From: Mesostigma viride
Lineage: Eukaryota > Streptophyta > Mesostigmatophyceae > Mesostigmatales > Mesostigmataceae
Assembly (NCBI GenBank): GCA_009746045.1
Contig: RPFO01000076.1
Location: 868,114 to 932,113 of the forward strand
Direction: 5' to 3'
DNA: 64,000 bases
Numbering within the stretch: position 1 is the stretch's first letter; every line of letters starts with the position of its first letter. Position numbers and translations under genes: made by a program. Positions 475-47,471 of this stretch are shown piece after piece. Below the pieces are notes generated by a model that did not search any database, had not been told where the DNA came from, and saw only the letters and a list, made by a program, of their open reading frames with translations.

Positions 475-872
475 TGCCTATGAACCCATATTTTCCAATT
501 CCCAACGACCGCAACCTGAGATCTGGAATTGAGCTTTTTCAATTTCCCGAAGAATCTTGCCCAGACTACCTCGCAAGAGCAAATCTGCTTTTTGCCCAAG
601 TTGAAGACATCTTCCCGGGCGTGTTTCCTGAATCTGCCTACTGCCGCTGGCTCCTGCGTGGCATTCGACAAGAATTTTTCAACTGTGTGTGTTTCAGCGA
701 ACTTCCAGACTTTTCAATCAGAAATCTACAGGATCTGCTCGACAACAACGCAGTATCTCTGGAGAGATTAAATCACACTTTACTTCACATTACAAATCTC
801 CAACGCAATCAAGAACATGTCGGGAGGTGCGCCAGCTGTGGCACGAGAAGTCAAGGAGAGCAGCGTTCTTAG
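474..872 (+). CDS. small ORF upstream of gag in TR-GAG element
   Basis: A 132-residue ORF starts 20 nt after the LTR and overlaps the start of gag by 56 nt in another frame. It is rich in aromatic and acidic residues (for example ELFQFPEES and FPGVFPES). I do not recognise a family. Its position between primer site and gag recalls the accessory ORFs of Copia-1 and Copia-2, but I see no sequence similarity to them. It could be a leader protein, the N-terminal part of a split gag, or chance. Confidence 0.4.
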   Translation: MPMNPYFPIPNDRNLRSGIELFQFPEESCPDYLARANLLFAQVEDIFPGVFPESAYCRWLLRGIRQEFFNCVCFSELPDFSIRNLQDLLDNNAVSLERLNHTLLHITNLQRNQEHVGRCASCGTRSQGEQRS

Positions 873-1701
873 TGCTCTCAAGAATCTCAACTTCGATGGG
901 AGCGACCCCAAGAAATTCACCGGATTCCGAATCAAGGCGGAAGGGCAATTCGACGCCCTTGGATATTCAGATGTACTAGCTGGAAAGGATCCGATCGTGG
1001 TAAAGCAGCAAAAAATTGGCTACGCTGCCCTGATTGGTGGCCTCGACGGCAACGCGCTACTGCATGCCGCTACGGCCCCCAACAAGTATATGCACGAGGC
1101 GTGGACCGTCCTGGTTGACGTCTATGGACATGACGAAACGACATCCACCCATCAGGCCGCGACACTTGAGGAACTGCTGTCAGCTGAGCAGATTCCCATG
1201 GATTCTGTTCCTGCAAATATCAATCTCACCGAACGAAAGTACCTGGAATATAATAAATTAAGCAACAATAAACTCCATGATTCTATCCTGGTGACATCAC
1301 ACCGCCGCAGACTTCCTGCCCAGTATGGCCCCGTCCTGGCGGCGTACAACCTTCCCCCCGACTTGACGTGGAAAGACTACAAGACCGCCGTCCTGAAAGT
1401 GGACGACCATCTGCGTGTGCACCGCGCGGCCCAAGCTGGCAGCTCAGATTCCAGTGCACCAGTGTATCATACTGCTGCCTGCCCCCACTGTGCGGGTACT
1501 ATCGACGAATCAGTCTTCCTCACCAAGGGTGGGAAAGTGCTGACCTGCAAGCACTGCCACCGTACCGGCCACACTGAGGATCGCTGCTGGTCCAAGAAGG
1601 CGGAGAACAAGTCCAAGAAACCTGAGGCGCACTTCACCATGGACGGCGAGCCACTGGCTGACGACGTGGCAGATGTTCCTGCTGGTTTTTTCATTGAGTA
1701 G
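817..1701 (+). CDS. Gag polyprotein with zinc knuckle (TR-GAG element)
   Basis: A 294-residue ORF. Residues 1-195 look like a Copia-type gag helical region (for example ALKNLNFDGSDPKKFTGF and LRVHRAAQ). A CCHC knuckle, CKHCHRTGHTEDRC, lies near residue 245, preceded by a CPHC pair near residue 221. The C-terminus is acidic. Gag packages element RNA into particles and binds nucleic acid through the knuckle; with no pol here, the element would depend on enzymes of another element. The frame is intact and the LTRs match, which points to fairly recent activity in trans. Confidence 0.8.
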   Translation: MSGGAPAVAREVKESSVLSALKNLNFDGSDPKKFTGFRIKAEGQFDALGYSDVLAGKDPIVVKQQKIGYAALIGGLDGNALLHAATAPNKYMHEAWTVLVDVYGHDETTSTHQAATLEELLSAEQIPMDSVPANINLTERKYLEYNKLSNNKLHDSILVTSHRRRLPAQYGPVLAAYNLPPDLTWKDYKTAVLKVDDHLRVHRAAQAGSSDSSAPVYHTAACPHCAGTIDESVFLTKGGKVLTCKHCHRTGHTEDRCWSKKAENKSKKPEAHFTMDGEPLADDVADVPAGFFIE

Positions 1702-1959
1702 CCGGAATACGTGACATGCAGTATGGGGGTGTGTCAAATATCTAGCGATGTTTCTCTACTTTTGTCACGCATTATGGTATCACGCATTATATGCGGGGAA
1801 AATTGACGCCGTCAGCTAGGTGTTTATTTACACGACTTGTTGTTGGGTTTGCATCCCTATTAATTGCACCCACAGGTCGTTGACTAACTTAATATCATAT
1901 ACAATGTTTGAGTGTACTAAAATCCGAATGATGTTGCTCGGAATACAGCAAGCGTTACC

Positions 1960-2475
1960 TGTCAGCACCGTTACAGGTGCCGTAATTTACATCGGCTCTC
2001 TCCGGATCAGATCAGGTCCGCAGTTTGTGGTGCCGCCCTGGAGGCGATAGGACTTTGAGCCTATCAGACCACACACACAATGTACCATGATGTGGACAAT
2101 AGATTACAGGCTGCAAAGTCGTTATTATCTAGTGTTCTTTCCGTGGTTGTAGAGACGCTAAGCTGCAGTGCCGTCAGATGTAAATCAACGGTGCATAATG
2201 CATTAGCCGCCACTACTTTGTGTGCCTAGAGTTGTTTTGCTTGCTAGCCGTGTGTGGCCCCGACCCAGTGTTGGTCGTGTGACCCTGCCCAGTGTTGGCA
2301 TTGTCATTTGCCCTGGCCCAGTGTTGGCTATGGTAGACTGCGCCCAGTGTTGGCCGCACCGTGTTTTCCACTCTCAGTAAACGTATTTTAATACAAGAAG
2401 TCTTTTCCATACACTTGTGCAATATCTGGGTCATAACAGGCAAAAGATCTTTCCTCCGAGCCCCGGTTTCTGACA
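1960..2475 (+). repeat. right LTR of TR-GAG element
   Basis: 516 bp, TGTCAG...CTGACA. The overlap with the left LTR shows no difference by eye. The left boundary was set from the inverted terminal hexamer because the left LTR's own start is off the window. No clear polypurine tract precedes it. Confidence 0.75.
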
Positions 2476-2771
2476 ACATGTCTACCAGATGGCAACACGG
2501 CCATCTGTATGCTAGGGTGAGCACACTATGTGAATGTGCAGGGCCAGCCCACAGCAGCTGTGCCCCTGCTCTACCCACATCTCCTTACATGGCTAACAGC
2601 CGAAAATACGTAGGACATGCAAAAAAGAAAACTTAAACTACCTAGCTATGGGGGTACTTTGTCCCAACCCAGGTTCACCCTCGGGTTAGTTAAACCATTT
2701 CCCCCCTGACCTCCCACACAAGGGTGAGGTCAGTTGATAGCTAAAAGACGAGAGATAAAAACAGGAGGACG

Positions 2772-5700
2772 TCAAAACTCGACGCCACCGAAGTGGCGCC
2801 GGAAAGCCGCTGGGTCAAAACCCAGGGCCTGAGCCCAGAGGGCGGGTGGGATGTCGCGCCCCAGGAGGCTGCGGTGGAGGCCAATGTAGCGCGTGACCGA
2901 GAGGGCCGAAGCCCACCGGCCGCGCAGCTGGATGGCCTCCGGCGACTCGCCAGCGATGGCGTCGTGCGTCGCCCCCCCATGCCGGAGGCTGTGAAAAGAA
3001 AACATCCCTGGGATGCCATGCGGGCCTGCACAGCCTCCCACTGCTGCCTAGCCTGGCTGTACGTTAAGCCCGAAAGAGGAGTGCATCCGGGGGCTGGCCA
3101 GCCGTCAGACGTCGCAGGAGCCACAAAGAAAGTGGATCCCGGACGAGGACGTGCTGGGCCGCCCCCTGCGCAGTTTTGGGGTTGCGCAGCACAAGGGCAC
3201 CGACCATGGGCCCTGGCTCGAGAAGGGGGTGGCCGGGATGAGCCACATCCCGAACCCGCAGCCCTAGCGCCTCGCTAATGCGTAAATACTGCTGGAAAGC
3301 AATAATAATCAACGCACTCAAATGCACCTGTCGACGTGAAACTAGCAACAGGGCAGTGAAATAGCAAAGGCGCCAGGGCATAGGCGGAGGGCTGACAGCC
3401 GGAACAAGCCGCTGCCAACCTGCTAGCAGGCGGTCCGCCAGTACCCAATTCCGAACAATGTCGGGGTAGTACAGGTGCAGACAGGCCTTGGCATGCTGGC
3501 ATAAGGTACGCCCCCGCCCGCCTCTGGCATGGTAGACAGCAGAAATCCACTCACAGAAAATGGCTTCCGCGTCAGCTGGGTCGACAGGGCCAGGTGGCGC
3601 CCACGCCACGTAGACAGCCGCCGCACGCCGGTACGCTGGCAAGGTAGACACAGGGTTGACTGTGCCCTCCAAAAGTGCCAAGTCCCGAGGGCGTCGCGCC
3701 CCCTCAGGCCCAGGGTTGGGATGCACGTCACCACACCGGGTCAAGTCAGGAACCCAAGCGCCACGCCGACTGGCCTTGTCAGCTGGGTTGTGGTCGGTAG
3801 CCACCCAGACCCAGTGGCTCTGCATGTCGCCAGCCAGTGACAGAGCGCAGTAGCGCCGAACCAGCTGGTTGAGCGGTAGGAAGACGACCGCCCTCTGACA
3901 AACGCCCCCACCACAGCACTGGAGTCTACGAGCCGGACGACTCGCTTACCCGACACGCCTTGGTCCGGCACGACCACTCGACCCCCTGTGTCGCAGCAAT
4001 CGCCTCCTTGACGTTGATGTGGTTAGGCTGCCCCCGCCACCGGTAGGACAGTGCCGTACGCCAGTGGCCACTATCCAGCAGGCTGTAGTCCCCCTCCTCC
4101 ATGCGCTCCAGGTCCCAGTCCTCCCCAGACGTTAAAGCTGTCGTCCGCCACCCCCGCGCTTCGCGCCGGGTCGCCAGCCGGGCACAATCGGCCCCAGGCA
4201 GGTCCCTGTAGACCACCCCACCGCCGGAGCCGCTCGCATCACTTGCGACGACCCGGTCAGAAAGGGGCCGGGCCCTGGCCGCCCTCAAAAAGGGGGCCAG
4301 GTCGATCGCCGCCTGAAGCTCCTGGCGGGCCCCCGCAGGGAGGCGCCAGCGGCGCCCAGGCAGGGAGGCATTCATGGCTGCTAGCAGCCGGTACGTCTCA
4401 GACCACACCGAAAGCATGGGGCGGCACAGCAGATGCATCCACACCCACTTCCCAAGCACAGAACTAAGTTCGCGGTAGTATGTAAACCCGCGATCTAAGA
4501 TTCTATGAGTAGCGGCGATAACTGCCACCACACGCTCAGGAACAGGCACCACGTCACCATCCTTTGGTGAATGACCCCACCGCCTGCACACCAGTCTGCT
4601 CTGCTGTCGCCCGTACCACCTTGTCAGACTTCTGCACCAGCCCAACAGCGGCGTAGGCAGCCTGAACACGATCTAGCTGCTGATTCACCCCATCCACCGA
4701 CGCACAGTGGGTGAAATGGAGGTCATCGATCGTCACAGCATGCATACCTTCCAGATCCTGCCGAGATTCGAAGCACGGCGAGGGCGCCAAGGGCGCAGCA
4801 GGGTCCTCCTCCAGCCTCAGCCGGACGGTCTCCCCCGCCTCGTTGGCCTCCGCCACCAGGATCAGCGCGGACATGTTGATGCTCAGCCCACGACTAGCCT
4901 CCAACGGCGGCTTGGGGCCACAGCGGTACAACACAGACTGATGCACACACTGGGCCACGCGACGGCCAGCTTGTTGCCCATTGGCCAGCACAACATCCAC
5001 GGCCACACCTTCCGACGAGCCCCACTCAGGCCCACCAGATCCGACCACACCGGCATCCACGCACAGTACCGCCGCATCCAAACTGGCAGGCGGAGTCTGT
5101 TGTAGTACGAATCCAAATCTGATACGCCCCCAAAAACATCCTCCCCAGCGCGCGTGGGCAAATCGCAAATCACGCCAAGGTGTGGTAAAAAAGCGGGCAT
5201 AGGATCTGGTAGTGGCATGTTGCCACGCCGGTTGTCCACAATCAGCCGTATACGGCCGTCGGGCTTTCCGACCCCAAAAGTACCGTTCACCATAGGCGGC
5301 TCCTCCTCAAAAAATCCACCCAAAATCCCCCTCTCCACACACACCGTGCAAACCCGCGCGAACTCCTCCATGCTACACCCCCGCGAGATCCGCATCGACT
5401 TCTGCAAGATCCGCTCTGCTGGGCTCAGCGTCCGTACCATCCTACTCTCATCATTCAAAATTGCTCCCCAAGAGGGGGGTAGTAAGTTCAGCACATCCAC
5501 TTGGCCACCTTCCCCCGGACCAGGCAAAGCCAAGCGTGCGGCCACTAACGGTTCGTAAGGGGCTCCTTCAGCATATTCACCCCCATCCACTACAGATCCT
5601 GCCATTGCCGCTACGGAACCACCGTTCCGGCGGACAAAGGACCTGCAAGCATCATCGATCCCATCTAGGGCCGCCTGCTGCAGAGGCCCGGGCACACGGG

Positions 5701-5880
5701 CTGAATCTACAGCAGGCGGGTCTCGCCCCCCCCCCCCATCCAGTTTAACGCCCTAACCGTCTGACAGGCTAGTGTGCGAGCATTAAAAGCCCGACTCATC
5801 CTATCGCGCCTACGGCCTGAGCGTACCTGCTGCCACCAGTCACGAGGTGGCAGGGGTGCTGGAAGAGGTAGTGGAAGAAG
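2772..5880 (-). pseudogene. PAT-A copy 1 pol: reverse transcriptase - RNase H - tyrosine recombinase, frameshifted
   Basis: Conserved pieces appear in order but in several frames. The RT has VGKPDGRIRLIVDN, then SDLDSYYNRLRLP (motif A) near 5100 and TIDDLHF (motif C, IDD) near 4715. RNase H has VVASDASGSGGG near 4240, a HINVKEA glutamate box near 4010 and RLVDSSAVVGA near 3910. The recombinase has YLRISEAL (first Arg), HSLRHGGATH (H-x-x-R), GRW and TRYIGLHR (nucleophile Tyr). At least four indels relative to copy 2 split it, so no full-length protein can be made. The start is uncertain: the pol frame is open through the end of ORF1 with no ATG, so it was probably expressed by a -1 shift. Confidence 0.85.
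3706..3729 (-). other. 2A-like motif DVHPNPGP between RNase H and recombinase (PAT-A copy 1)
   Basis: The minus strand encodes CGDVHPNPGP. This fits the 2A ribosome-skipping consensus D-V/I-E-x-N-P-G-P except for His at the Glu position. It sits exactly between the last RNase H motif (PADKASR) and the start of the recombinase domain. By analogy with 2A-like motifs described in other retrotransposons, skipping would release the recombinase from RT-RNase H. Function is inferred. Confidence 0.6.
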
Positions 5881-5891
5881 GCACCGCTCCC

Positions 5892-6991
5892 TCACTTGTT
5901 GTTGTTGGACGGGCCGCCCTGCCCCTTCTTGCCGGGACCCTGCTCCAGCTTGTGCTGCAGCTTCCCCATGCTCATCGCCGCCCGCACCGCCGGAGACGCC
6001 AGCATTGCTCCACCCTCCTGGAATGGCAGCATTGCCGACGGCGTCCCCTTCCACCCGTCGACCCCACATCCACCAGCTGGCATGCCGTGATCAGCTTTGC
6101 CAGGTACTCGGCTGCTGCCAGCTCCAGAATTACTTCGGAGCGTGGCGTGGCCCAGTAGCCAAATTCTGTCACCATCGTGTCCAGAATTCCTGCCATCTGC
6201 AGGAGCAGCATCCGCCTCTCCCCGCTGGCTGAGCTGCCGTGCATCGTCAGCATTAACGATGCACGGATGGACTTCCCCCCCACGCTCTCCGCGTAGTCCA
6301 GCATTCCCGGCAGCACCGCCTCCAGCATGTTGCTCACCAGCACCGGCACTGCATGCCCACTCAGCGCCACCCCCTTCGTGCGCGCCAGCCTGCCAGCAGT
6401 CGTCGCTGCGGCTGGGCTTGCAGCTGCTGGAGTCTTTGCCTGGTCCAGCAGCTTCGACATGGCCGATATCAGGTCGCCAATATCTCCGCCAGTGCGGGCG
6501 TTGCCCGGCCGGGATGGAAGCCCTCCAGCTGGCGTTGCATAGCCCGTCTCGGTCCCCAGCAGCCGACCTAGGTTTCGGTCCAGGTCCGCCACAGCCTGGT
6601 CGATCGCCCCAGGAGCGCCATCGTCCTCCCCAGCGCCCGCTCCACCATGCCCCGCCCCTCCGCTTCCACCTGCCGAAGGGGGAACACCCCCGTTCCCACC
6701 GCACCTGCTGACACTGGTGGTCCGGCTCTGCAATAGCCTCCCCCAGTTGCGCTGCTAGCACATCGGCCAGGGCCTCCTCCCCATCCCAGTCGCTGACAAA
6801 CCCCCTTTCCTCCAGACGTCCATGACGTTCTTGGCACGCCCCGGAGTGAGCTTCTGGATCCGCTCTAGCCAGTTCCCCTCCCCTAGGATCTTCTGGACCG
6901 CAGTGGCGGCCTCCTTTGGGGTGCATCCCTCCTTGGCTGCTTGCTTGAGTTTCGCTAGGAAATTCCGGTCTGGGGCTGTCACTGTGGTCAT
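5892..6991 (-). pseudogene. PAT-A copy 1 ORF1 (gag-like), frameshifted
   Basis: Starts MTTVTAPDRNFLAKLKQ at 6991 and ends near KLQHKLEQ...PSNNNK with a TGA at 5892. The protein is Gly/Ala/Pro-rich in the middle and has no CCHC knuckle that I can see. A 2-bp deletion near 6815 relative to copy 2 (27525) and further indels break the frame. Gag-like ORF1 is usual at this position in PAT-type elements. The C-terminal block ASPAVRAAMSM..KLQHKL is also recognisable in PAT-C ORF1 (TPAVKAALQTA..LDKL), which supports a real, conserved protein. Confidence 0.7.
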
Positions 6992-7059
6992 GGTGGGTTA
7001 TACTGCTTGATGTGTTATCTTGCGTTTTGTTTTTTGTGATGTGGTCACGTGAGGTTCTC

Positions 7060-8067
7060 AGGCAAAAGAAACAACCTGCTTCCCTAGAATGGAAGCCCAC
7101 CCTTTATAGCAACCACCTCTCCAGCCAACCCCTACCTGGGTGGCTGGGGTACGGGTGCCAGCACAAAAAATATTTTTTCTAAAATTATTTTTTCTTTTGG
7201 TGCTATACGGCGTTGCATTCTCCGCTCAGCAGGTTAGTCATAGATAAAATGAGCATAGCTCACCAAATCCATCCATCCATCCATCCATCCATCCATCCAT
7301 CCATCCATCCATCCATCCATCCATCCATCCATCCATCCATCCATCCATCCATCCATCCATCCATCCATCCATCCATCCATCCATCCATCCATCCATCCAT
7401 CCATCCATCCATCCATCCATCCATCCATCCATCCATCCATCCATCCATCATCCATCCATCCATCCATCATCCATCCATCCATCCATCCATCCATCCATCC
7501 ATCCATCCATCCATCCATCCATCCATCCATCCATCCATCCATCCATCCATCCATCCATCCATCCGTCCCATCCATCCATCCATCCATCCATCCATCCATC
7601 CATCCATCCATCCATCCATCCATCCATCCATCCATCCATCCATCCATCCATCCATCCATCCATCCATCCATCCATCCATCCATCCATCCATCCATCCATC
7701 CATCCATCCATCCATCCATCCATCCATCCATCCATCCATCCATCCATCCATCCATCCATCCATCCATCCATCCATCCATCCATCCATCCATCCATCCATC
7801 CATCCATCCATCCATCCATCCATCCATCCATCCATCCATCCATCCATCCATCTATCCATCCTACCATCCATCCATCCATCCATCCATCCATCCATCCATC
7901 CATCCATCCATCCATCCATCCATCCATCCATCCATCCATCCATCCATCCATCCATCCATCCATCCATCCATCCATCCATCCATCCATCCATCCATCCATC
8001 CATCCATCCAATCCATTTCTGGCCTTGCCTTGCTTTGCATGCATCACCACAAAACATCAAATTTATT
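7060..8067. repeat. PAT-A split-repeat arm (b1) with microsatellite expansion
   Basis: Begins AGGCAAAAGAAACAACC, as in 8232 and 27773, and ends AAATTTATT, as in 8499. Compared with the 268-bp arm at 8232-8499, this arm is enlarged by a long (ATCC)n run. In coding orientation it is the 5' arm (A1) of copy 1. Confidence 0.85.
7264..8010. repeat. (ATCC)n microsatellite, about 750 bp
   Basis: Near-perfect ATCC tetranucleotide repeat with a few interruptions (7449, 7468, 7564, 7851, 7861). Long frames through it encode only Ile-His-Pro-Ser or Met-Asp-Gly-Trp repeats and are not genes. The arm at 8232-8499 has a single ATCC at the same place, while the arm at 27773-28029 has a short run, so the expansion grew from one unit inside the PAT-A arm. 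Confidence 0.97.
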
Positions 8068-8499
8068 ACAATATGTGTGCTAGCTCTATACGGTGGAATA
8101 ACACAGACATGTCTACCAGATGGCAACACGGCCATCTGTATGCTAGGGTGAGCACACTATGTGAATGTGCAGGGCCAGCCCACAGCAGCTGTGCCCCTGC
8201 TCTACCCCTTTTGCCAGGGTGGGTGGGTGGGAGGCAAAAGAAACAACCTGCTTCCCTAGAATGGAAGCCCACCCTTTATAGCAACCACCTCTCCAGCCAA
8301 CCCCTACCTGGGTGGCTGAGGTACGGGTGCCAGCACAAAAAATATTTTTTCTAAAATTATTTTTTCTTTTGGTGCTATACGGCGTTGCATTCTCCGCTCA
8401 GCAGGTTAGTCATAGATAAAATTAGCATTATTAGCTCACCAAATCCATTTCTGGCCTTGCCTTGCTTTGCATGCATTACCACAAAACATCAAATTTATT
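8068..8499. repeat. PAT-A joined repeat (A2-B2) with quadruplex motif at the join
   Basis: Segment 8068-8207 matches 13947-14086 (140 bp each) and segment 8232-8499 matches the arms at 7060 and 27773. Between them lies a 24-nt spacer, 8208-8231, found only in this joined copy. The spacer holds a G-quadruplex motif framed by the inverted repeat CTTTTGCC / GGCAAAAG (8208-8215 and 8233-8240). Confidence 0.85.
8217..8231 (+). other. G-quadruplex motif GGGTGGGTGGGTGGG (PAT-A)
   Basis: Four G3 tracts with single-T loops on the plus strand, opposite to the coding strand, so element RNA would be C-rich here and first-strand cDNA G-rich. Motifs with equivalent position and polarity occur at 8647-8661 (PAT-C) and, C-rich on the plus strand, at 44747-44761 and 47311-47325. 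Structure formation is inferred from the motif only. Confidence 0.8.
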
Positions 8500-9093
8500 T
8501 CTATTAACCGTGGAACTCCAGGGTAACCAGACTCTTTATTAAAACAATGAGTGGAGCACATACAAAAGGCAGGCCACATCCCGGCCGCCGATGCTCATGG
8601 GAACACTTATTGCTTGGCAAAGGCTAGCCTTACCCCCAAACACGCAGGGAGGGTGGGCGGGAAAAGAAAAGAGGCCGACCTTAGCTAGGTGGGTTTGTTT
8701 TTGTCCTTTTTTGCGTGTCATGCGGCCTTGGCCCGGACGGCATTTTTTCGCCACGCAAATGTTGCGTCTGAACAAATGACGCAATGTGGCGTTCTAATTG
8801 CCGGCAGCTTACGTAAGGCTGCCGGGGCTATTAGGTCACATATTGCGTGAGAGAAAGAATCTAGATCTAGTTAATCACTACGCCATGAGCCAAGAAACCT
8901 AGACAGTGGCAGGTTTATATCTCAACGTAGCTCCTGCCACCTGGCCAAGAAAAACTGGCCAAAGCTTTGGCCACGACTGATCCGGATCAGGCCGCACCGG
9001 CCTCAAAAGGTTTGTCACGTGAACCCAATAACCTAGCTATAGCGGCTACCCTTCCATCTCACTATAAAGAAACTATGTTCAGAGAACCACGAT
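8500..9093. repeat. PAT-C joined repeat (A2-B2)
   Basis: Arm 8500-8635, a 25-nt spacer containing four G3 tracts, and arm 8661-9093. The arm starting TCTATTAACC contains a plus-strand TTTATTAA (AATAAA on the coding strand), suitable for 3'-end formation of the element RNA. Outer arm copies are at 9094-9231 and 13514-13946. Confidence 0.88.
8647..8661 (+). other. G-quadruplex motif GGGAGGGTGGGCGGG (PAT-C)
   Basis: Four G3 tracts with one-nucleotide loops at the join of the two arms, on the non-coding strand. Neither split arm copy (around 9231 or 13514) has it: those read TACCCTTATATCCC and CCCTCGTGAAAAG. Confidence 0.8.
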
Positions 9094-9231
9094 TCTATTA
9101 ACCGTGGAACTCCAGGGTAACCAGACTCTTTATTAAAACAATGAGTGGAGCACATACAAAAGGCAGGCCACATCCCGGCCGCCGATGCTCATGGGAACAC
9201 TTATTGCTTGGCAAAGGCTATAGCCTTACCC
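9094..9231. repeat. PAT-C split arm, downstream of pol (B1 in coding sense)
   Basis: Repeat of 8500-8635. It starts TCTATTAACCGTGG directly after CCACGAT at 9093 and diverges from the first copy after GCCTTACCC. Confidence 0.88.
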
Positions 9232-9301
9232 TTATATCCCTCCCTGGCATAATGACAGGGGCAAAGAACCTAGCATAATGACAGAGAAATGAACAACCAA
9301 A

Positions 9302-12300
9302 TTAGGTGGAGGGCAATTTCAAAATAGCCCGCCAGGCCCGAGGGGGGCAGGCGGCCATGGCCCGAAGAATAACCTCAGGCAGCTGCACCTCCAAACTGCG
9401 GTGCAAGCCCACATAATGGGCAACCGTGGAGCTGCTAAGCCAGCGCCCCCGGCCCTGGATGTCCCCCATGCTGCGACCCGCAAGGAAATCGTGAGTGGCA
9501 CCTCCATGCCGCAGCCCGTGAATGGTGAAAATCTGGGCGACCCCCAAGGCCTGACTCGCAGCCTGCCAAATGCGCCGGAATTGCGGGTAGGTGAAAGGGA
9601 ACACGGCCTCCCAAGCGTGCTTACCCGCGATGCAGTGACGGAGGATGGTTTCAGACATCACATCTTCTACCACCACTGACTGAGTCTTGCCCTTAGAGGT
9701 CTTGGTAGACCTCAGCAGTAGGGCGCCCCGTTGAGCCGGCCCAAGCCGAACGTCAGGCTGGAGGCGCACATGGCCAACACGGAGGTTCAGCGCCTCCGAG
9801 ATTCGCAGGTAATGGCGGAACACGATGACAACCAGCAGGCCCGCAAGGCGCTGACCTTGCATGACCATCGTGCTGGCAAGTGCAAACGCCGCCTCCCATG
9901 GAATGGGAGGAGGGGCACGGGGGGGCACAAGTGTTTTCCACCCAGCGAGGACGCCACGGGCCAAGTCCCACCGCTTCACCATACCGGGATAATAAAGTTG
10001 CAACCCCATCAAGGCATTGACACACACTTGGCGGCTGTACCCCCGAAAATGAGCCCAGGCGACATACGCACAAAATGTCTCCTCAAGGGTGTCAGCTCGT
10101 GACGATGACCCGTCCGCCCGCCCACCAGCCTCCCACCAAGTCAAGAGGGAATCAAGACCACGACGGTAGGCCAGCAAAGTAGCCGGCTTTACTTTCCCCT
10201 CTAGCAATGGAAGGTAGCTAACAGGTGCAGGGGGCCCCGGGTTAGGATGGATGCCTTCCGCGGTCAGGTCGCGCACCCAGCCTGCCAAGAAAGTCGCCAT
10301 GGATTGGCCGCGAGAAACGCCATCGGCTGGTTGAAGTGCACTCGGCGTCCACACCCACTGGGAACGACTCACCGTGGCGAGGGTCAGCGCGCACAAGCGG
10401 CGGCACTGCTTGTTGAGCTTGTGGGATGAGGACCGCCCCTTAGCCAAGCAGCCCAACGCCGCGGTGGAGTCCACCAACCTCACCACCCGCTTGCCTCGGT
10501 TTGCCAAGCTGCGCGCACTCCTCTCCACGCCCTTCACTGCAGCCCGCACCTCCTTCTCGTTGATGTGCATCCCCGGATCCCGCCAACGACTCCGGACCCC
10601 AACCCGCCATTGCTGGCTAGTGATTGCTTGTTGCGCCCGCGCGCTCAGTGGCCTAGGGCCAGCGTAGGCCACCTCACTTGGTATGAGCAAAGTCGGGTAC
10701 CCCCGCACCTCTCGTGCCCTCGCCAGCTCCGTCACATCGCCCGGCTCCATGGTTGCGTACACGACACCTTGCCCGTAGGTGGACGCGTCAGATGCAACCA
10801 CCTCACGGGCCAAAGGTGCGCTTCGGTCAACCCTTAGCATGGGAGCCAAGGCCAGGGCACACTCTAACTCCTCCCGCACCCCGGCCCACAGCACCCAGGA
10901 TCGCTGCCCCCACCCTTGCAGGCTGATGAATTTGAAACATTGCTGCCAAATGGACAAGCAGCTGCGGCTTAACATCTGCAGCCACAACCACCGCCCCAAG
11001 ACGGCAGCCAGCCCCTCGGCCGTAGCTCGGCCTCGAGTGAGTATAGCCTGCGTGTGGGCGATCACAAGGTTGAGCTGCTTGACCGTTGGTTCCAGCACGC
11101 CGTTCCGTCGGTGCACCACCCCTAGGGCTTCTAGCTCGTCCCCTTCCAGGCTCGCCATCTTAGTCTTCTCCTTAGACGGCACAAGGTTGTTAGGGAGGTA
11201 GCCTTCCTCAATAGCGCGCGTGATGAGCTGGTTCACCGCCTCGCAGGTCCGCCCGTTGCTGGCCACCAAGTCATCAATGGTGATGGACAGCATGGGGGCA
11301 GGGGGGTTTTCCAGGTCAATCTGAAGCTCCCCGGCGCGCTCCTCCTTGTACTCGATGGCCAAGCGCAGTGGCTGGCCACACTCGTCGCGCACCAAGGTGA
11401 GCTCACCTGCGCTTGAGAGGTAGTTGACCTGGCGCCTCGGATCCAGGGCACCGGTCATGTAGAGCACCATCTCATGGATGGCCTCCCCCAGCGCCACCGC
11501 ATGGGAATGTCCCATGGCCAGCACCTTGAGCACGGGCCACACCTTCCGCCTGAGCCCTGCCAGACCTACGCTAGTCGACCACACACTAGGAAGCCCTTGG
11601 TAGTCCCACCACCACTCGGGCACCTCGATGGAATAGTAGTATGACACGAGGTCGCTCTTGGCGCAGTAGCACCAGCCTTTGATGTAGACCTCCACGAGGA
11701 TGCCCAGGTGGGGTAGCAGGATCTTGGGGGGTCCACCCACAGCAGGTTGCCCAGCTTCCTGTTGACGATGAACCGAAGCTCACCCACCCCCTTGGCCACT
11801 CCAAAGCAGCCATCCACCCACTTGGGCCGCCTCTCCCGGAACGCCACCATGCCCACGCCCGCTGCCCGGCTCATGAGCTTGCCCCATTCAGCCATGGAGC
11901 ATCCCCGGCTGGGCTTGGGCACATTCCAATACTTTGCGCTCGCCACGACCGCTGGCTTGATGCAGTTCTCTTCGCTGGCATATATCTCCCGCCAGCTCGG
12001 CCGCATAGCCAACAGGTCGAGCAGCCGTGCCTTCCCCGCCACCTCCGCCTTTGGTAGACTCACCGCGTCCGCGCGCAGTTGTTCATACTTATTCTGCTTC
12101 CCATATATTGCATCAGCACCTTCTTGCTCCTGGCCTGTCGCAACGCCCCCTACGCGGCGACTGTGCCAGGTGCAGTGCCTCTTGACCCTCGCAAGGGCCT
12201 CCTCCCTCCCCTTAGAGCACGCCCCTCTAGGGTTAGGAGGAGGGTCTTGCCCCCCTCCCCACAGCCAATTAAGCCAACGCACTACCTTGCATTGCAGTGT

Positions 12301-12440
12301 GTACTCGCGGTGGCGGCGCGTGGCACGCTGTCGCCGGCGTGCCGATCTCACCCTGCCCCACGCGGTGTACGCTGGCCTAAGTGGGTATGGCAGCGGGAAA
12401 AGGGAGCGGTCCCGCTGGGATTCTATTTCCCTACTTGTTG
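9302..12440 (-). pseudogene. PAT-C pol: RT - RNase H - 2A-like - tyrosine recombinase (one frameshift)
   Basis: The N-terminal part (12440 to about 11738) holds CFGVAKGVGELRFIVNRKLGN. After a frame change in a G/C run near 11735 an open frame of about 810 codons continues to 9302. It contains KSDLVSYYYSIEVP (RT motif A), SITIDDLVAS (motif C), VVASDASTYGQG, HINEKE, RLVDSTAALG and QPADGVSR (RNase H), a HPNPGP motif, then YLRISEALNLR, HGLRHGGATH, GRGRW and VAHYVGLHR of the recombinase with all R, H-x-x-R and Y residues present. RT copies element RNA; the recombinase integrates the circular DNA. The start is unclear: the frame overlaps the end of ORF1 in the -1 phase without an ATG. Except for the single indel it is intact. 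Confidence 0.88.
10232..10258 (-). other. 2A-like motif variant EGIHPNPGP (PAT-C)
   Basis: Same position as in PAT-A, after VRDLTA and before the recombinase. HPNPGP is kept but the Asp before Val/Ile is missing. In characterised 2A peptides that Asp matters, so skipping activity here is doubtful. Confidence 0.5.
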
Positions 12441-13426
12441 AGCCTTGCTGAGCTTGTCCAAGAGGATGGCAGTTTGGAGAGCTGCCTTGACAGCCGGGGT
12501 GGCTGACAGTGCAGCCTCCTCCCCCAATGGCAGGAGGTGGCTGGCCACCTTCCACCCCCCCCTCCTTGCCCTTCCACCTGCAGCAAGGCCGCCACCACCC
12601 TCATTAGGTACTCCATGCCCACAAGCTCCCCGGCTGCTGAGCCCAGCTCCTTGAGAAGGGTGTCCATGGCCAATGCAATGTTCATGACAATTTTCCTGTT
12701 CTCCATGTTCCGCCAATTTCCAGGCTTTACCGTCATGACCCACGACCGGATTCCCATCCCATCGTCGCTGGCGTCCTCCAACACCCCCGGCAGCACCCGC
12801 TCCGAAACCCGATATTTCACGCTCTTGGCTCGGCTTGGCAGCGCCACCCCTTTCGAGGCCTTGAAGTGGCTTCCCGCCCCCTCCATTCCTCCCAGCGCTG
12901 CCTTCCAACCTTGCATGAATTTCTCGGCTGCGACCTCCCCCTCCTCGTCCTCCTCGTCGTCCTGATTTTCGGTTTCCGGAGGTGCCCCAACGAATGTCGC
13001 CAACCTCGCCCTCGGCTTGGCCATTTTTCGCTGCGCAGGTGTCGTTGGTGGCAGCGCCTGATCCTCCTCCTCGTCCGCCGCGAGATCTGCCACGGCCAGC
13101 AGTTTTGCCACCAACGTTCCGTTTGGGTCACGTGCGTCCAACACGTCGCCAACATCAACGTGATCGGCCAGCAACTGCACGACAGACTTCAGCTGGCTCG
13201 AGCTCCACGAGCTGGCGTCCGTCACCCAGTCCTCGGCACCGAAGACCTGCTCGACTGCCCCCACCGCCTCTGCGGGGCTGATACACTTGGCGAGCAGAGT
13301 GGCGAGCTGCTTCTTTTTGGCGCTGAAGGCGACTGGCGCGTGACTGGCGGCAGCAGCCCGCGGTGTGGGCGTCCCGTCCTTCCCGCGCGCTGCCTGCCCT
13401 CCTGTAGCTTTGCGCCCCTTCGGCAT
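12423..13426 (-). pseudogene. PAT-C ORF1 (gag-like), frameshift in a G run
   Basis: Starts MPKGRKATGGQAARGKDG at 13426. It has a basic N-terminus, an acidic stretch (NQDDEEDEEGE) near residue 155 and a helical C-terminal half. At a run of eight G on the coding strand (about 12562) the conserved frame changes; the downstream end TPAVKAALQTAILLDKLSKAQQ matches the ORF1 end of PAT-A and stops at 12423. The change is most simply a 1-bp indel, although a shift at the G run cannot be excluded. No knuckle or enzyme motif is seen. Probable nucleocapsid role by position. Confidence 0.65.
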
Positions 13427-13513
13427 TGCTGCTCAGGGCCAAAAATGGCTCCGACAGTACAGGTTCGTCAAACCAGAGGTTCGTTTCCCCTGGCTTGCTG
13501 TCGCCGCCCTCGT

Positions 13514-13946
13514 GAAAAGAAAAGAGGCCGACCTTAGCTAGGTGGGTTTGTTTTTGTCCTTTTTTGCGTGTCATGCGGCCTTGGCCCGGACGGCATTTTT
13601 TCGCCACGCAAATGTTGCGTCTGAACAAATGACGCAATGTGGCGTTCTAATTGCCGGCAGCTTACGTAAGGCTGCCGGGGCTATTAGGTCACATATTGCG
13701 TGAGAGAAAGAATCTAGATCTAGTTAATCACTACGCCATGAGCCAAGAAACCTAGACAGTGGCAGGTTTATATCTCAACGTAGCTCCTGCCACCTGGCCA
13801 AGAAAAACTGGCCAAAGCTTTGGCCACGACTGATCCGGATCAGGCCGCACCGGCCTCAAAAGGTTTGTCACGTGAACCCAATAACCTAGCTATAGCGGCT
13901 ACCCTTCCATCTCACTATAAAGAAACTATGTTCAGAGAACCACGAT
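13514..13946. repeat. PAT-C split arm, upstream of ORF1 (A1 in coding sense)
   Basis: 433-bp repeat of 8661-9093, from GAAAAGAAAAGAGGCC to CCACGAT. In coding orientation this is the 5' end of the element and should hold the promoter. A CTCACTATAAAG stretch lies near 13912 on the plus strand, but no promoter is proven. Confidence 0.88.
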
Positions 13947-14086
13947 ACAATATGTGTGCTAGCTCTATACGGTGGAATAACACAGACATGTCTACCAGAT
14001 GGCAACACGGCCATCTGTATGCTAGGGTGAGCACACTATGTGAATGTGCAGGGCCAGCCCACAGCAGCTGTGCCCCTGCTCTACCC
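13947..14086. repeat. PAT-A split arm (B1 of copy 2)
   Basis: 140-bp match to 8068-8207, from ACAATATGTGTG to GCTCTACCC. The segment 14087-14281 that follows is the non-coding 3' part of PAT-A pol and is nearly identical to 2577-2771. Confidence 0.88.
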
Positions 14087-14281
14087 ACATCTCCTTACAT
14101 GGCTAACAGCCGAAAATACGTAGGACATGCAAAAAAGAAAACTTAAACTACCTAGCTATGGGGGTACTTTGTCCCAACCCAGGTTCACCCTCGGGTTAGT
14201 TAAACCATTTTCCCCCTGACCTCCCACACAAGGGTGAGGTCAGTTGATAGCTAAAAGACGAGAGATAAAAACAGGAGGACG

Positions 14282-16135
14282 TCAAAGCTCGACGCCACCA
14301 AAGTGGCGCCGGAAAGCCGCTGGGTCAAAACCCAGGGCCTGAGCCCAGAGGGCGGGTGGGATGTCGCGCCCCAGGAGGCTGCGGTGGAGGCCAATGTAGC
14401 GTGTGACCGAGAGGGCCGAAGCCCACCGGCCGCGCAGCTGGATGGCCTCCGGCGACTCGCCAGCGATGGCGTCGTGCGTCGCCCCCCATGCCGGAGGCTG
14501 TGAAAAGAAAACATCCCTGGGATGCCCATGCGGGCCTGCACAGCCTCCCACTGCTGCCTAGCCTGGCTGTACGTTAAGCCCCGAAAGAGGAGTGCATCCG
14601 GGGGCTGGCCAGCCGTCAGACGTCGCAGGAGCCACAAAGAAAGTGGATCCCGGACGAGGACGTGCTGGGCCGCCCCCTGCGCAGTTTTGGGGTTGCGCAG
14701 CACAAGGGCACCGACCATGGGCCCTGGCTCGAGAAGGGGGTGGCCGGGATGAGCCACATCCCGAACCCGCAGCCCTAGCGCCTCGCTAATGCGTAAATAC
14801 TGCTGGAAAGCAATAATAATCAACGCACTCAAATGCACCTGTCGACGTGAAACTAGCAACAGGGCAGTGAAATAGCAAAGGCGCCAGGGCATAGGCGGAG
14901 GGCTGACAGCCGGAACAAGCCGCTGCCAACCTGCTATGCAGCAGGCGGTCCGCCAGTACCCAATTCCAAACAATGTCGGGGTAGTACAGGTGCAGACAGG
15001 CCTTGGCATGCTGGCATAAGGTACGCCCCCGCCCGCCTCTGGCATGGTAGACAGCAGAAATCCACTCACAGAAAATGGCTTCCGCGTCAGCTGGGTCGAC
15101 AGGGCCAGGTGGCGCCCACGCCACGTAGACAGCCGCCGCACGCCGGTACGCTGGCAAGGTAGACACAGGGTTGACTGTGCCCTCCAAAAGTGCCAAGTCC
15201 CGAGGGCGTCGCGCCCCCTCAGGCCCAGGGTTGGGATGCACGTCACCACACCGGGTCAAGTCAGGAATCCAAGCGCCACGCCGACTGGCCTTGTCAGCTG
15301 GGTTGTGGTCGGTAGCCACCCAGACCCAGTGGCTCTGCATGTCGCCAGCCAGTGACAGAGCGCAGTAGCGTCGAACCAGCTGGTTGAGGCGGTAGGAAGA
15401 CGACTGCCCTCTGACAAACGCCCCCACCACAGCACTGGAGTCTACGAGCCGGACGACTCGCTTACCCCGACACGCCTTGGTCCGGCACGACCACTCGACC
15501 CCCTGTGTCGCAGCAATCGCCTCCTTGACGTTGATGTGGTTAGGCTGCCCCCGCCACCGGTAGGACAGTGCCGTAAGCCAGTGGCCACTATCCAGCAGGC
15601 TGTAGTCCCCCTCCTCCATGCGCTCCAGGTCCCAGTCCTCCCCAGACGTTAAAGCTGTCTTCCGCCACCCCGCGCTTCGCGCCGGGTCGCCAGCCGGGCA
15701 CAATCGGCCCCAGGCAGGTCCCTGTAGACCACCCCACCGCCGGAGCCGCTCGCATCACTTGCGACGACCCGGTCAGAAAGGGGCCGGGCCCTGGCCGCCC
15801 TCAAAAAGGGGGCCAGGTCGATCGCCGCCTGAAGCTCCTGGCGGGCCCCCGCAGGGAGGCGCCAGCGGCGCCCAGGCAGGGAGGCATTCATGGCTGCTAG
15901 CAGCCGGTACGTCTCAGACCACACCGAAAGCATGGGGCGGCACAGCAGATGCATCCACACCCACTTCCCAAGCACAGAACTAAGTTCGCGGTAGTATGTA
16001 AACCCGCGATCTAAGATTTTATGAGTAGCGGCGATAACTGCCACCACACGCTCAGGAACAGGCACCACGTCACCATCCCTTTGGTGAATGACCCCCACCG
16101 CCTGCACACCAGTCTGCTCTGCTGTCGCCCGTACC
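14282..16135 (-). pseudogene. PAT-A copy 2 pol, 3' part: RNase H, 2A-like, tyrosine recombinase
   Basis: Continues from 24533 across the Copia-1 insertion. It carries VVASDASGSGGG, HINVKEA, RLVDSSAVV, CGDVHPNPGP (15221-15244), YLRISEALGLR, the H-x-x-R box SFHSLRHGG and TRYIGLHR. Indels near 14525, 14940 and 15670 split the reading frame. Compared with copy 1 the sequence is nearly identical but the indels differ, so the copies decayed independently. Confidence 0.85.
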
Positions 16136-16806: not shown

Positions 16807-16811
16807 CTTTC

Positions 16812-19347: not shown

Positions 19348-19353
19348 CTTGAG

Positions 19354-27772: not shown

Positions 27773-28029
27773 AGGCAAAAGAAACAACCTGCTTCCCTAG
27801 AATGGAAGCCCACCCTTTATAGCAACCACCTCTCCAGCCAACCCCTACCCGGGTGGCTGAGGTACGGGTGCCAGCACAAAAAATATTTTTTCTAAAATTA
27901 TTTTTTCTTTTGGTGCTATATGGCGTTGCATTCTCCGCTCAGCAGGTTAGTCATAGATAAAATGAGCATAGCTCACCAATTCATCCATCCATCCATCCAT
28001 CCATCCATCCATCAATCCATCCATCCATT
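27773..28029. repeat. PAT-A split arm (A1 of copy 2), outer end missing
   Basis: Matches 8232-8499 from AGGCAAAAG to the CACCAA..CATCC stretch, then a short ATCC run and an abrupt change to unrelated sequence at about 28029. The terminal AAATTTATT end is missing. Confidence 0.8.
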
Positions 28030-42944: not shown

Positions 42945-43363
42945 TCGGGGTTCTTTGAACGGAGTTTCTTCTATACGTGAATGCGGGAACAAGAGGCCGC
43001 TGGATGAGCGGCTTTATAGGTCGTAGTGTTTTCTCGTAGCTGTTTGGCTAGAGCTTTTGTGATTAGTAGATGCAGTATAGTGCATGGTTGAAAAATGAAT
43101 TAAATAAAATGTGCGTTCCGCGCTTGGGTTGATTATACCCGGGCGGAACGGGGCGTGAGGTGCAGTGCCCCTGAAAAGAACAACCTACGCATTATTTAAT
43201 ACTAGCCGTGCAGATTCGGGATATTCTACCCCCGGTCTGTACGGTTAGCATCTTACTAGCATCACTGAACATAAGGGTTTAATGACGTCAGTTAGCTAGG
43301 GATAAGGGAGGTTTTGCGACTAAAAGCCGCTCTGGCTGGTTTTGTCGGCCTCTTTCTTTGCTC

Positions 43364-44200
43364 GTTGTCGTTGCGGCGGCAGCCGCAGCTATGGGTGCTG
43401 CGGAGCAAAATCCCAAAAGCACTGGTTGCACCGGCCACTTGGCCAGTGGTGAGACTTCCAGTTGTTAACCGGCCAGGCGTAGTTCCTCGCCCGGTTAACT
43501 AAAAGAAAAGAAAATGATTACCTCCGGTCCGCACCTTTTCCCCAGCTTGGGGTCTTTGGTGGGCCGGGTGCCGTGACAGGTGCTCAACTGTCGCTTGGTC
43601 GGCCCAGTGCGCGAGCTGGTGCTCCGTACCTGGGGATGCTTGCACCCCGGGTTGGAGCCGGATGGCTGGCACTGGCGACCCGTGTCTCGGTCCGCGGCCT
43701 GAGGCTTTTTCTTCGGAAATTGCTGCTGGCCAGCAAACTTTGCAAATGCCTTCCGCCGAGGGGGGGGTGGTTGGGGCTGGGGACGGCGATGGGAAAAGCG
43801 CCTAAGCTAGAAATTTTTTCCCCACGCATAGAAACCTCGGGGGGGAATGCGGTCTTGGCTGAACGGACTCTCGTTCAGCCAGGTGCCTGGGGCTGTGGCC
43901 TCGGGCATCCGGGCTGGCGGGGCCTGGGCTAGGTCCACGTTTTTTCTCGAAGCACCCCGGGTCTATGGGGAGACGGCCATAGCGGTACCGACTCGGGGCC
44001 CCGAGAGGGGTCATGATGGGCTGGCCGTGCGCAATCGCAGTGCAAATGCGCTGGGCCTTTTTGGGCCTGGCCATGCATCCACAGCCGCCGGGCACACGCC
44101 TCCCGATGTGGGGGGGCTCCCGTTTTGCGGCAGGGCGGTCACTTGTGACAACGAGCAAGGTGGAGTGCGGCTTCAAGGGAAAGCCAGGGCGGGGGTGATT
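43364..44200 (+). other. interior of PAT-like element I, no convincing gene
   Basis: 837 bp, GC-rich. The longest frames (43573-43932 plus; 43802-44206 minus) have no known motif and no shared reading-frame conservation that I can judge. Locus II (45928-46763) has the same interior, with about one to two differences per hundred bases. Confidence 0.5.
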
Positions 44201-44746
44201 GGGCAACGTACTTCATGAAGGGCCTTGAACGGCGTGCCTCCGGGCATGTCAATAGTGTCACATGTATGCTTCCACTTATTGTTTTAATGAAGATGCTGGT
44301 TTTTGTGGGAGCTACGTGGGACATGAATCGGGGTTCTTTGAACGGAGTTTCTTCTATACGTGAATGCGGGAACAAGAGGCCGCTGGATGAGCGGCTTTAT
44401 AGGTCGTAGTGTTTTCTCGTAGCTGTTTGGCTAGAGCTTTTGTGATTAGTAGATGCAGTATAGTGCATGGTTGAAAAATGAATTAAATAAAATGTGCGTT
44501 CCGCGCTTGGGTTGATTATACCCGGGCGGAACGGGGCGTGAGGTGCAGTGCCCCTGAAAAGAACAACCTACGCATTATTTAATACTAGCCGTGCAGATTC
44601 GGGATATTCTACCCCCGGTCTGTACGGTTAGCATCTTACTAGCATCACTGAACATAAGGGTTTAATGACGTCAGTTAGCTAGGGATAAGGGAGGTTTTGC
44701 GACTAAAAGCCGCTCTGGCTGGTTTTGTCGGCCTCTTTCTTTGCTC

Positions 44747-44761
44747 CCCACCCACCCACCC
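44747..44761 (-). other. G-quadruplex motif (minus strand) in PAT-like element I
   Basis: CCCACCCACCCACCC on the plus strand gives GGGTGGGTGGGTGGG on the minus strand, identical to the PAT-A motif and again in the spacer of the joined repeat. The spacer also holds a GTTGCC/GGCAAC hairpin. Confidence 0.8.
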
Positions 44762-44906
44762 TTGTCTTGGTTGCCTCTAGGGCAACGTACTTCATGAAGG
44801 GCCTTGAACGGCGTGCCTCCGGGCATGTCAATAGTGTCACATGTATGCTTCCACTTATTGTTTTAATGAAGATGCTGGTTTTTGTGGGAGCTACGTGGGA
44901 CATGAA

Positions 44907-45495: not shown

Positions 45496-45508
45496 CTGCA
45501 GACAACAA

Positions 45509-47471
45509 TCGGGGTTCTTTGAACGGAGTTTCTTCTATACGTGAATGCGGGAACAAGAGGCCGCTGGATGAGCGGCTTATAGGTCGTAGTGTTTACTCGT
45601 AGCTGTTTGGCTAGAGCTTTTGTGATTAGTAGATGCAATATAGTGCATGGTTGAAAAATGAATTAAATAAAATGTGCGTTCCGCGCTTGGGTTGATTATA
45701 CCCGGGCGGAACGGGGCGTGAGGTGCAGTGCCCCTGAAAAGAACAACCTACGCATTATTTAATACTAGCCGTGCAGATTCGGGATATTCTACCCCCGGTC
45801 TGTACGGTTAGCGTCTTACTAGCATCCACTAAACATAAGGGTTTAATGACGTCAGTTAGCTAGGGATAAGGGAGGTTTTGCGACTAAAAGCCGCTCTGGC
45901 TGGTTTTGTCGGCCTCTTTCTTTGCTCGTTGTCGTTGCGGCGGCAGCCGCAGCTATGGGTGCTGCGGAGCAAAATCCCAAAAGCACTGGTTGCACTGGCC
46001 ACTTGGCCAGTGGTGAGACTTCCAGTTGTTAACCGGCCAGGCGTAGTTCCTCGCTCGGTTAACTAAAAGAAAAGAAAATGATTACCTCCGGTCCGCACCT
46101 TTTCCCCAGCTTGGGGTCTTTGGTGGGCCGGATGCCGTGACAGGTGCTCAACTGTCGCTTGGTCGGCCCAGTGCGCGAGCTGGTGCTCCGTACCTGGGGA
46201 TGCTTGCACCCCGGGTTGGAGCCGGATGGCTGGCACTGGCGACCCGTGTCTCGGTCCGCGGCCTGCGGCTTTTTCTTCGGAAATTGCTGCTGGCCAGCAA
46301 ACTTTGCAATTGCCTTCCGCCGAGGGGGGGGTGGTTGGGGCTGGGGACGGCGATGGGAAAAGCGCCTAAGCTAGAAATTTTTTCCCCACGCATAGAAACC
46401 TCGGGGGGGAATGCGGTCTTGGCTGAACGGACTCTCGTTCAGCCAGGTGCCTGGGGCTGTGGCCTCGGGCATCCGGGCTGGCGGGGCCTGGGCTAGGTCC
46501 ACGTTTTTTCTCGAAGCACCCCGGGTCTATGGGGAGACGGCCATAGCGGTACCGACTCGGGGCCCCGAGAGGGGTCATGATAGGCTGGCCGTGCGCAATC
46601 GCAGTGCAAATGCGCTGGGCCTTTTTGGGCCTGGCCATGCATCCACAGCCGCCGGGCACACGCCTCCCGATGTGGGGGGCTCCCGTTTTGCGGCAGGGCG
46701 GTCACTTGTGACAACGAGCAAGGTGGAGTGCGGCTTCAAGGGAAAGCCAGGGCGGGGGTGATTGGGCAACGTACTTCATGAAGGGCCTTGAACGGCGTGC
46801 CTCCGGGCATGTCAATTAGTGTCACATGTATGCTTCCACTTATTGTTTTAATGAAGATGCTGGTTTTTGTGGGAGCTACGTGGGACATGAATCGGGGTTC
46901 TTGGAACGGAGTTTCTTCTATACGTGAATGCGGGAACAAGAGGCCGCTGGATGAGCGGCTTATAGGTCGTAGTGTTTACTCGTAGCTGTTTGGCTAGAGC
47001 TTTTGTGATTAGTAGATGCAATATAGTGCATGGTTGAAAAATGAATTAAATAAAATGTGCGTTCCGCGCTTGGGTTGATTATACCCGGGCGGAACGGGGC
47101 GTGAGGTGCAGTGCCCCTGAAAAGAACAACCTACGCATTATTTAATACTAGCCGTGCAGATTCGGGATATTCTACCCCCGGTCTGTACGGTTAGCGTCTT
47201 ACTAGCATCCACTAAACATAAGGGTTTAATGACGTCAGTTAGCTAGGGATAAGGGAGGTTTTGCGACTAAAAGCCGCTCTGGCTGGTTTTGTCGGCCTCT
47301 TTCTTTGCTCCCCACCCACCCACCCTTGTCTTGGTTGCCTCTAGGGCAACGTACTTCATGAAGGGCCTTGAACGGCGTGCCTCCGGGCATGTCAATTAGT
47401 GTCACATGTATGCTTCCACTTATTGTTTTAATGAAGATGCTGGTTTTTGTGGGAGCTACGTGGGACATGAA
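45509..47471 (+). mobile_element. PAT-like split-repeat element without recognisable protein, locus II (intronic)
   Basis: Same architecture as locus I: L 45509-45927, interior 45928-46763, R 46764-46891, L 46892-47310, spacer with quadruplex motif 47311-47325, R to 47471. It sits in the first intron of the unknown gene, 13 nt from the acceptor. Nearly identical to locus I, so both transposed recently from one source. Confidence 0.75.
47311..47325 (-). other. G-quadruplex motif (minus strand) in PAT-like element II
   Basis: Same CCCACCCACCCACCC on the plus strand and same position in the joined repeat as in locus I. Confidence 0.8.

Follow-up and report, generated by a model that had tools for sequence, protein, structure and literature searches.

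An antisense G-quadruplex motif at the joined repeat of PAT-like retrotransposons in Mesostigma viride: a candidate cis-acting element

A quadruplex motif made of four G3 tracts with one-base loops (loop-1 G4) is found at the joined repeat of several families of PAT-like retrotransposons of Mesostigma viride. The order seen in the joints read is A1-interior-[G/purine tract]-B1-A2-[antisense G4]-B2, with the same position and polarity in several families. The G4 may be a conserved cis-acting element of these retrotransposons, working within a start-stop model based on strong-stop DNA; the probability given to this reading, which is drawn from sequence, is about 0.36. A role of the motif in replication, suggested by the initial annotation, is plausible. 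The window means the whole stretch of DNA analysed (64 kb).

Loop-1 motifs in the window

The initial annotation placed loop-1 motifs at 8217-8231 (+), 8647-8661 (+), 44747-44761 (-) and 47311-47325 (-), and all four are found exactly there. They are the sole loop-1 G4s of the 64-kb window when the one-base loops are other than G; 100 dinucleotide shuffles of the window give a mean of 0.01 per shuffle, versus 4 observed, and further G-rich and C-rich matches have longer loops. As judged from the letters only, all four have the four G3 tracts and one-base loops of this class, and loop-1 G3 quadruplexes are very stable. RNAfold with quadruplexes places a G4 in the best structure of 5/5 G-rich strands tried, its RNA parameters being only a guide for DNA. 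The loops vary by family (TTT, ATC, TTC, ACT, TAA) and the G tracts are kept, these having been required by the search itself.

Each motif sits in the short spacer between arms A2 and B2, according to self-comparison and to a split-repeat detector that is blind to the G4. Polarity is the same in all four: the sense strand is C-rich, the antisense strand is G-rich and the G-rich strand comes directly after A2, which confirms that the motif lies opposite the coding or coding-equivalent strand. The loop-1 motif is absent from the split copies (A1/interior and interior/B1) of the window elements. The description of a motif confined to the joined spacer holds for the loop-1 form; a looser G4 (44177-44203, loops up to 7) is found in the sense strand of an ORF-less element, at a split copy, where B1 has its left edge. 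Rfam gives no known RNA family in the window at gathering scores, and nothing up to E 1 in the stretch 42900-47600.

Anatomy of the elements

The features are sorted by family. Coordinates are those of the window, followed by the strand. SC, self-comparison; SC/D, self-comparison and detector.

PAT-A
2476..8067, minus: additional tandem A-ORFs-B unit; its arm A (7060-8067) contains a CCAT array and its arm B is a remnant (2476-2576)
8067..8207, minus: arm B2, identical to 13946-14086
8208..8231, plus: spacer between A2 and B2; loop-1 G4 GGGTGGGTGGGTGGG at 8217-8231, on the element's antisense strand
8208..8240, no strand: CTTTTGCC / GGCAAAAG, an inverted repeat enclosing the G4; one half belongs to the spacer, the other to arm A
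8232..8499, minus: arm A2 (SC)
13946..14086, minus: arm B1, split copy; the PAT-C insertion lies between it and A2
14087..14103, minus: B1 left-edge tract GCCATGTAAGGAGATGT, preceding the GGG of B1
27773..28028, minus: arm A1, shortened at a CCAT array

PAT-C
8499..8635, minus: arm B2 (SC/D)
8636..8661, plus: spacer; loop-1 G4 GGGAGGGTGGGCGGG at 8647-8661, its final bases overlapping the end of arm A
8658..9093, minus: arm A2 (SC/D)
9093..9231, minus: arm B1 (SC/D)
9232..9248, minus: B1 left-edge tract GCCAGGGAGGGATATAA, adjoining B1
9302..13426, minus: ORFs, including an 812-aa ORF at 9302-11740 (Pfam Phage_integrase PF00589, E 3.6e-7)
13511..13946, minus: arm A1 (SC/D)

ORF-less elements 1 and 2
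42945..43363, plus: element 1, arm A1 (SC/D)
44183..44200, plus: element 1, B1 left-edge tract GCCAGGGCGGGGGTGATT
44201..44327, plus: element 1, arm B1 (SC/D)
44328..44746, plus: element 1, arm A2 (SC/D)
44747..44779, minus: element 1, spacer; G4 on the minus strand at 44747-44761
44780..44906, plus: element 1, arm B2 (SC/D)
45501..47471 (left end approximate), plus: element 2; A1 to 45927, B1 46764-46891, A2 46892-47310, B2 47344-47471
47311..47343, minus: element 2, spacer; G4 on the minus strand at 47311-47325

The sense order of PAT-C and of both ORF-less elements is A1-interior-B1-A2-spacer-B2. Split direct repeats of the form A1-internal-B1A2-B2 are found for PAT-C, for both ORF-less elements and for a further family, L024; those of another, L019, were read by eye and its A1 was not seen. 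The PAT-A locus is a tandem (sense order A-ORFs-B-[PAT-C insertion]-A-spacer-B-A-ORFs-B, plus other insertions), within which the split repeats were read by eye. The PAT-A copies run in tandem through the B/A junction.

PAT-C sits in the PAT-A B/A junction, with the left flank ending ...AAATTTATT and the right flank beginning ACAATATG..., the two joined near 8067/8068. The place of this insertion (8499 and 13946) is the kind of point where the circle is thought to open. Other features of the locus are a CCAT array of ~750 bp (7260-8010) in one PAT-A arm A, missing from the arm of the joint; 454-bp direct repeats (1-454 and 2022-2475) flanking the insertion that cuts PAT-A arm B at 2476; and an LTR-element-like insertion in the second PAT-A unit (16136-24536), with 658-bp direct repeats at both ends. 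Outside these elements, 48970-49431 holds the near-palindrome GGTCTCGCTGCAGCGAGACC and its variants, as several repeats among imperfect direct repeats.

The 8-bp inverted repeat said to frame the PAT-A motif is present, and a hairpin around the G4 was drawn from it with RNA parameters. As a general part of the joint such a repeat is rejected: by eye it has 8 bp in PAT-A, 11 bp in the PAT-G family and 5 bp in L019, and none was noticed in PAT-C, the ORF-less elements or L024.

The evidence for a tyrosine recombinase (YR) comes from PAT-C and PAT-A. The PF00589 match of PAT-C is above the cut-off; that of PAT-A (14251-15249, E 3.6e-4) is below the curated cut-off and its region aligns to the PAT-C ORF. 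The RT-YR regions of the two families are 29-65% identical by segment, mostly about 40%. The Pfam scan of eight ORFs returned no RT match and no methyltransferase domain; an RT-like motif is visible by eye, and PAT-A matches the N-terminal part of the PAT-C 812-aa ORF. Among predicted proteins, a Mesvir1-labelled match to the PAT-C ORF is 100% identical over 84% of the part searched, and a second is 77% identical over 41%; the best of these matches makes Mesostigma viride, a streptophyte, the most likely host, rather than a volvocine alga. No relative of the 812-aa ORF was confirmed in viral contigs.

PAT-C and the ORF-less element have both ends of arm A, and part of arm B, in common. The view that the families share little arm sequence needs qualifying for this pair, and the RT-YR regions of PAT-A and PAT-C align as well. 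Families related by their arm ends are not independent cases.

Occurrence of the motif in the genome

The genome sample comprises 18 stretches totalling 158,939 bases, some 10,000 being N, and six more (60,000 bases), in all 218,939 bases. These were picked by position and not at random: two border the window, four more of the first set and two of the second are on its contig, and several are on small contigs. The sample contains two isolated loop-1 motifs (L019:5548 and L024:3579), each in the B2-spacer-A2-B1 joint of another PAT-like family (L019 and L024, first noticed through the motif); its other loop-1 matches are microsatellite arrays (L018 and the contig 1 stretch at 1.0 Mb). The A2-B2 spacer carries the motif in 6/6 joints inspected with repeats (PAT-A, PAT-C, two ORF-less, L024, L019). 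The G4-blind detector, run on the window and 21 blocks (L019 only after 5300), gives four complete joints (PAT-C, two ORF-less, L024), and the motif is present in every one; besides these, it paired arms across the two ORF-less elements and, in one case, wrongly paired arms of PAT-A.

When arrays are counted, GGGNGGGNGGGNGGG occurs genome-wide at 228,157 forward and 226,178 reverse overlapping places; GGGT, GGGA and CCAT arrays are abundant in this genome. The isolated-motif pattern occurs at 1,388 forward and 1,457 reverse places (2,845). Read backward, the same pattern occurs at 763 and 831 places, which is no estimate of chance, since the four GGG tracts remain in the reversed pattern and its flank conditions are mirrored. 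Among 100 isolated sites listed of the 2,845, all on contig 1, 58 have the signature of a PAT joint (ORF-less 16, PAT-F 15, PAT-C2 8, PAT-A 8, PAT-C 7, L019 family 3, PAT-G 1); the other 42 are five possible joints, 21 sites of one tandem repeat and 16 microsatellite edges or others. Flanks were read at 20 places that represent most of the signatures: 10 are PAT joints by their arm ends, two are possible and eight are not recognisable. Repeats were seen for PAT-A, PAT-C, ORF-less, L024 and L019; PAT-C2 is assigned by similarity to PAT-C, and PAT-F and PAT-G by the arm-end motif alone.

The tandem repeat, mostly ~4.2 kb per unit, has its own isolated loop-1 G4 and lies at C1:8421402-8718018 and 12083139-12087251. 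A stretch of it (L067, 150 bases) matches no PAT arm compared.

Most isolated motifs seen sit at joints. The expectation that motif, position and polarity are conserved across families is supported, by two further families with visible repeats and by others known from short flanks only. The contrary expectation, that the motif is equally common elsewhere, does not hold for the isolated form, which is found chiefly at joints (2/2 sampled, 58 among the 100 listed); with arrays included, the motif is very common.

Joint copies found with patterns blind to the motif

A G4-blind pattern for the PAT-A joint matches 101 + 82 = 183 places, and its backward control none. By hand count, 84 of 100 listed (of 183) keep four GGG tracts with one-base gaps of any letter; the same 100 comprise 52 with the consensus, 10 with one extra C and 38 others. 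The intact loop-1 motif is lacking in 16 of the 100, mostly through a change in a G tract; one of these keeps a longer-loop G4 and two are G14 runs. A broken variant (third tract GGA) is found at three places, and two of these resemble a single duplicated pair. Most damaged PAT-A motifs could result from decay after insertion.

The G4-blind pattern for the ORF-less joint matches 281 + 315 = 596 places (control 0), and the motif is kept in 31/31 among the matches listed. A pattern that demands the G4 and uses shorter arm words matches 374 + 432 places (control 0); this exceeds 596 because its arm words are shorter. Two listings compared over the part of the genome common to both give the G4 at 72/73 ORF-less joints. 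Near PAT-C protein matches (20 of 56 places) the motif is intact at 17/20; of the remaining three, L041 is altered in two loops, which have become C, L036 ceases to be similar within the spacer, and L054 is unrelated. The PAT-C copies are too alike to show constraint. Copies without the motif, named in the initial annotation as contrary evidence, do exist, and most copies keep it. In PAT-A and ORF-less elements there are also single copies that carry a unit or two more than usual, or one unit less.

Some neighbouring joints are 429-437 bp apart (PAT-A: C479, C1324, C1502, C1549) or 583 bp apart (ORF-less: C2:4749280, 4749863). Such spacing is about one A-spacer-B unit, and these are perhaps tandem or free-standing units, solo-LTR-like. 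Places of ~49 bases with ORF-less arm words and a G4 (C1:489974, 2865187 and others) are ~7 bases shorter than the known joint and perhaps belong to a related family. The joint pattern in viral contigs was rejected: of seven stretches, six are poly-C or CCCA runs or lack repeats resembling arms, and the seventh (L076) has, by eye, dispersed repeats and phage-like genes and no split repeat.

Signals at B1 and at the arm ends

On the sense strand, the left edge of B1 is preceded by a tract followed by GGG: GCCAGGGCGGGGGTGATT (ORF-less), GCCAGGGAGGGATATAA (PAT-C), GCCAGGGGAGGGGTGAT (L024), GCCAGGTAGTGGGTGC (L019) and GCCATGTAAGGAGATGT (PAT-A). The pattern GCCA-N12..14-GGG is found there in 5/5 families, with GCCA 16-18 nt before GGG. 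It was noticed post hoc, and the five families include three that are related. The GGG of L019 and L024 is at, or just before, the first bases where both B copies match exactly. The left edge of B2 is the spacer, and no GCCA precedes B2 at the same spacing; L019 contains two more GCCA, one close by and one ahead of B2 at a different spacing. The pattern occurs seven times in 8,664 bases of interior sense sequence, and at least one of the two L019 cases overlaps the tract. The position would suit a polypurine tract, directly upstream of the supposedly copied unit in 5/5 families, with modest purine/G enrichment: 0.3% to 16.5% of interior windows equal or exceed the tract. This GCCA tract at B1 is new here. 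With the tract on the left edge of B1 and the G4 after A2, the unit B1-A2 is bounded like an LTR.

Arm A is closed beside the G4 by TTTCTTT or CTCTTT in 10/11 arm ends. A conserved TATA box as a general feature is rejected: TATAAA is exact in PAT-A only and one mismatch off in L058, and 9/11 arm ends have none.

Proposed mechanism and alternatives

LTR retrotransposons have a polypurine tract and a primer-binding site that bound the LTR and set the start and stop of the plus strand. In the present elements the unit B1-A2 might, as a tentative proposal, be a hidden LTR, with the G/purine tract as primer and the G4 as terminator, and a DNA quadruplex in the cDNA would be a programmed stop of the plus strand that replaces the tRNA primer-binding site. 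The tract at the left edge of B1 would prime plus-strand DNA synthesis, which would copy B1 and A2 and halt at the G4 folded in the G-rich first-strand cDNA, this G4 acting in place of the tRNA-bound primer site at which plus-strand DNA ends in LTR elements. The resulting strong-stop DNA would end in the pyrimidine tract closing arm A, and could anneal to the 3' end of the cDNA, a copy of the 5' end of the RNA, in the same arm-A end; a transcription start near the end of arm A is an assumption of the model. The transfer would rebuild a complete promoter arm A ahead of the ORFs. Recombination of the terminal B copies would next give a circle, [A-ORFs-B][A-G4-B], to be integrated by the tyrosine recombinase at a B/A junction. 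Such a model would account for the antisense strand of the G4, for its place after A2 rather than A1 and for the points at which the arms end: the G-rich strand is the template of the plus strand, and the G4 is absent after A1, where synthesis must pass.

The same polarity and position can be read as a transcriptional signal, a somewhat unlikely explanation that has some weight. Lying in the template strand immediately past the A2 copy of the promoter, and not after A1, a G4 could block or weaken transcription from A2 so that only A1 drives the ORFs, and plant quadruplex motifs near predicted LTR promoters (PMC3902901, in the part cited) point the same way. However, genomic RNA running through to B2 would cross the same site, and most arms have weak promoter features.

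The joints are short (GGGT)n-like runs in a genome rich in GGGT, GGGA and CCAT arrays, and single copies have gained or lost units; the motif could be a functionless tetranucleotide microsatellite tract inherited from the common ancestor of the families. This is unlikely, as the number of tracts is four in most copies shown, the loops differ between families whose arms have diverged, and most isolated motifs seen are at joints.

A role in first-strand synthesis, which fits polarity and position equally well, is a shade more doubtful. The G-rich cDNA could fold behind the RT, free the C-rich RNA and shield it from RNase H, so that the end of A2 stays open for transfer; alone, this would leave the G-rich tract at B1 unexplained.

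In PAT-C the G4 is followed by AAAAGAAAAGAGG, a long purine-rich antisense run, and such a run (G4 + AAAGAAA) might be a polypurine primer for an antisense genomic RNA; this is very improbable, since it requires an antisense RNA genome whereas the mutually matched ORFs are read from the other strand. Least probable of all is the G4 as the site where the circle recombines or integrates: one PAT-C place (L036) does lose similarity within the G-rich spacer, but the PAT-C insertion into PAT-A is at the B/A junction, and the spacing of some neighbouring PAT-A joints (429-437 bp) is about one A-spacer-B unit, both of which indicate B/A, and not the spacer, as the site.

Relation to known elements

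Three matters are known already from the cited parts of the literature: PAT elements have split repeats, LTRs of plants contain quadruplex motifs, and DIRS-1 prefers copies of itself as insertion sites (PMC5006619). PAT-like elements (PAT/TOC/Kangaroo) are described with split direct repeats A1, A2, B1 and B2 and a tyrosine recombinase (PMC4157794, PMC6681497), both common to the known and the present elements; the cited parts of these papers make no mention of a G4 in the A2-B2 spacer or of a G/purine tract at B1, which are features of the Mesostigma elements. The arm order is similar in Ngaro, A1-[ORFs]-B1A2B2 (PMC8547959), and in VIPER, with A1 at the 5' end and B1, A2 and B2 at the 3' end (PMC6681497); both are held separate from PAT in the literature cited and are set apart here by description. 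Plant LTR retrotransposons have strand-biased quadruplex motifs at discrete places near predicted promoters (PMC3902901); as far as the cited part goes, these are inside the LTRs at varied distances from the promoter, whereas the loop-1 motif of Mesostigma abuts one arm end.

The repeats of the present elements are direct, unlike the inverted terminal repeats and internal complementary region of DIRS1-like elements, and a repeat search of positions 1-16000 of the window lists no inverted pair of 30 bases or more. Compared with the polypurine tract and primer-binding site of LTR elements, the two bounding sites are alike; the stop proposed here, on positional evidence, would be folded DNA and not a tRNA. 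Among the open-licence papers listed, titles and abstract openings hold no report of a quadruplex at the PAT joint, or of a quadruplex or polypurine tract with DIRS or YR elements.

Significance

Current views on how the RNA of YR retrotransposons becomes a circle, and on the reason for their split repeats, are based on models. A quadruplex on one strand at one boundary, with a G/purine tract at the other, offers a concrete and testable start-stop model. If true, it would be a case of a DNA quadruplex as a replication signal. In practice, the motif may be used as a quick marker for PAT-like elements.
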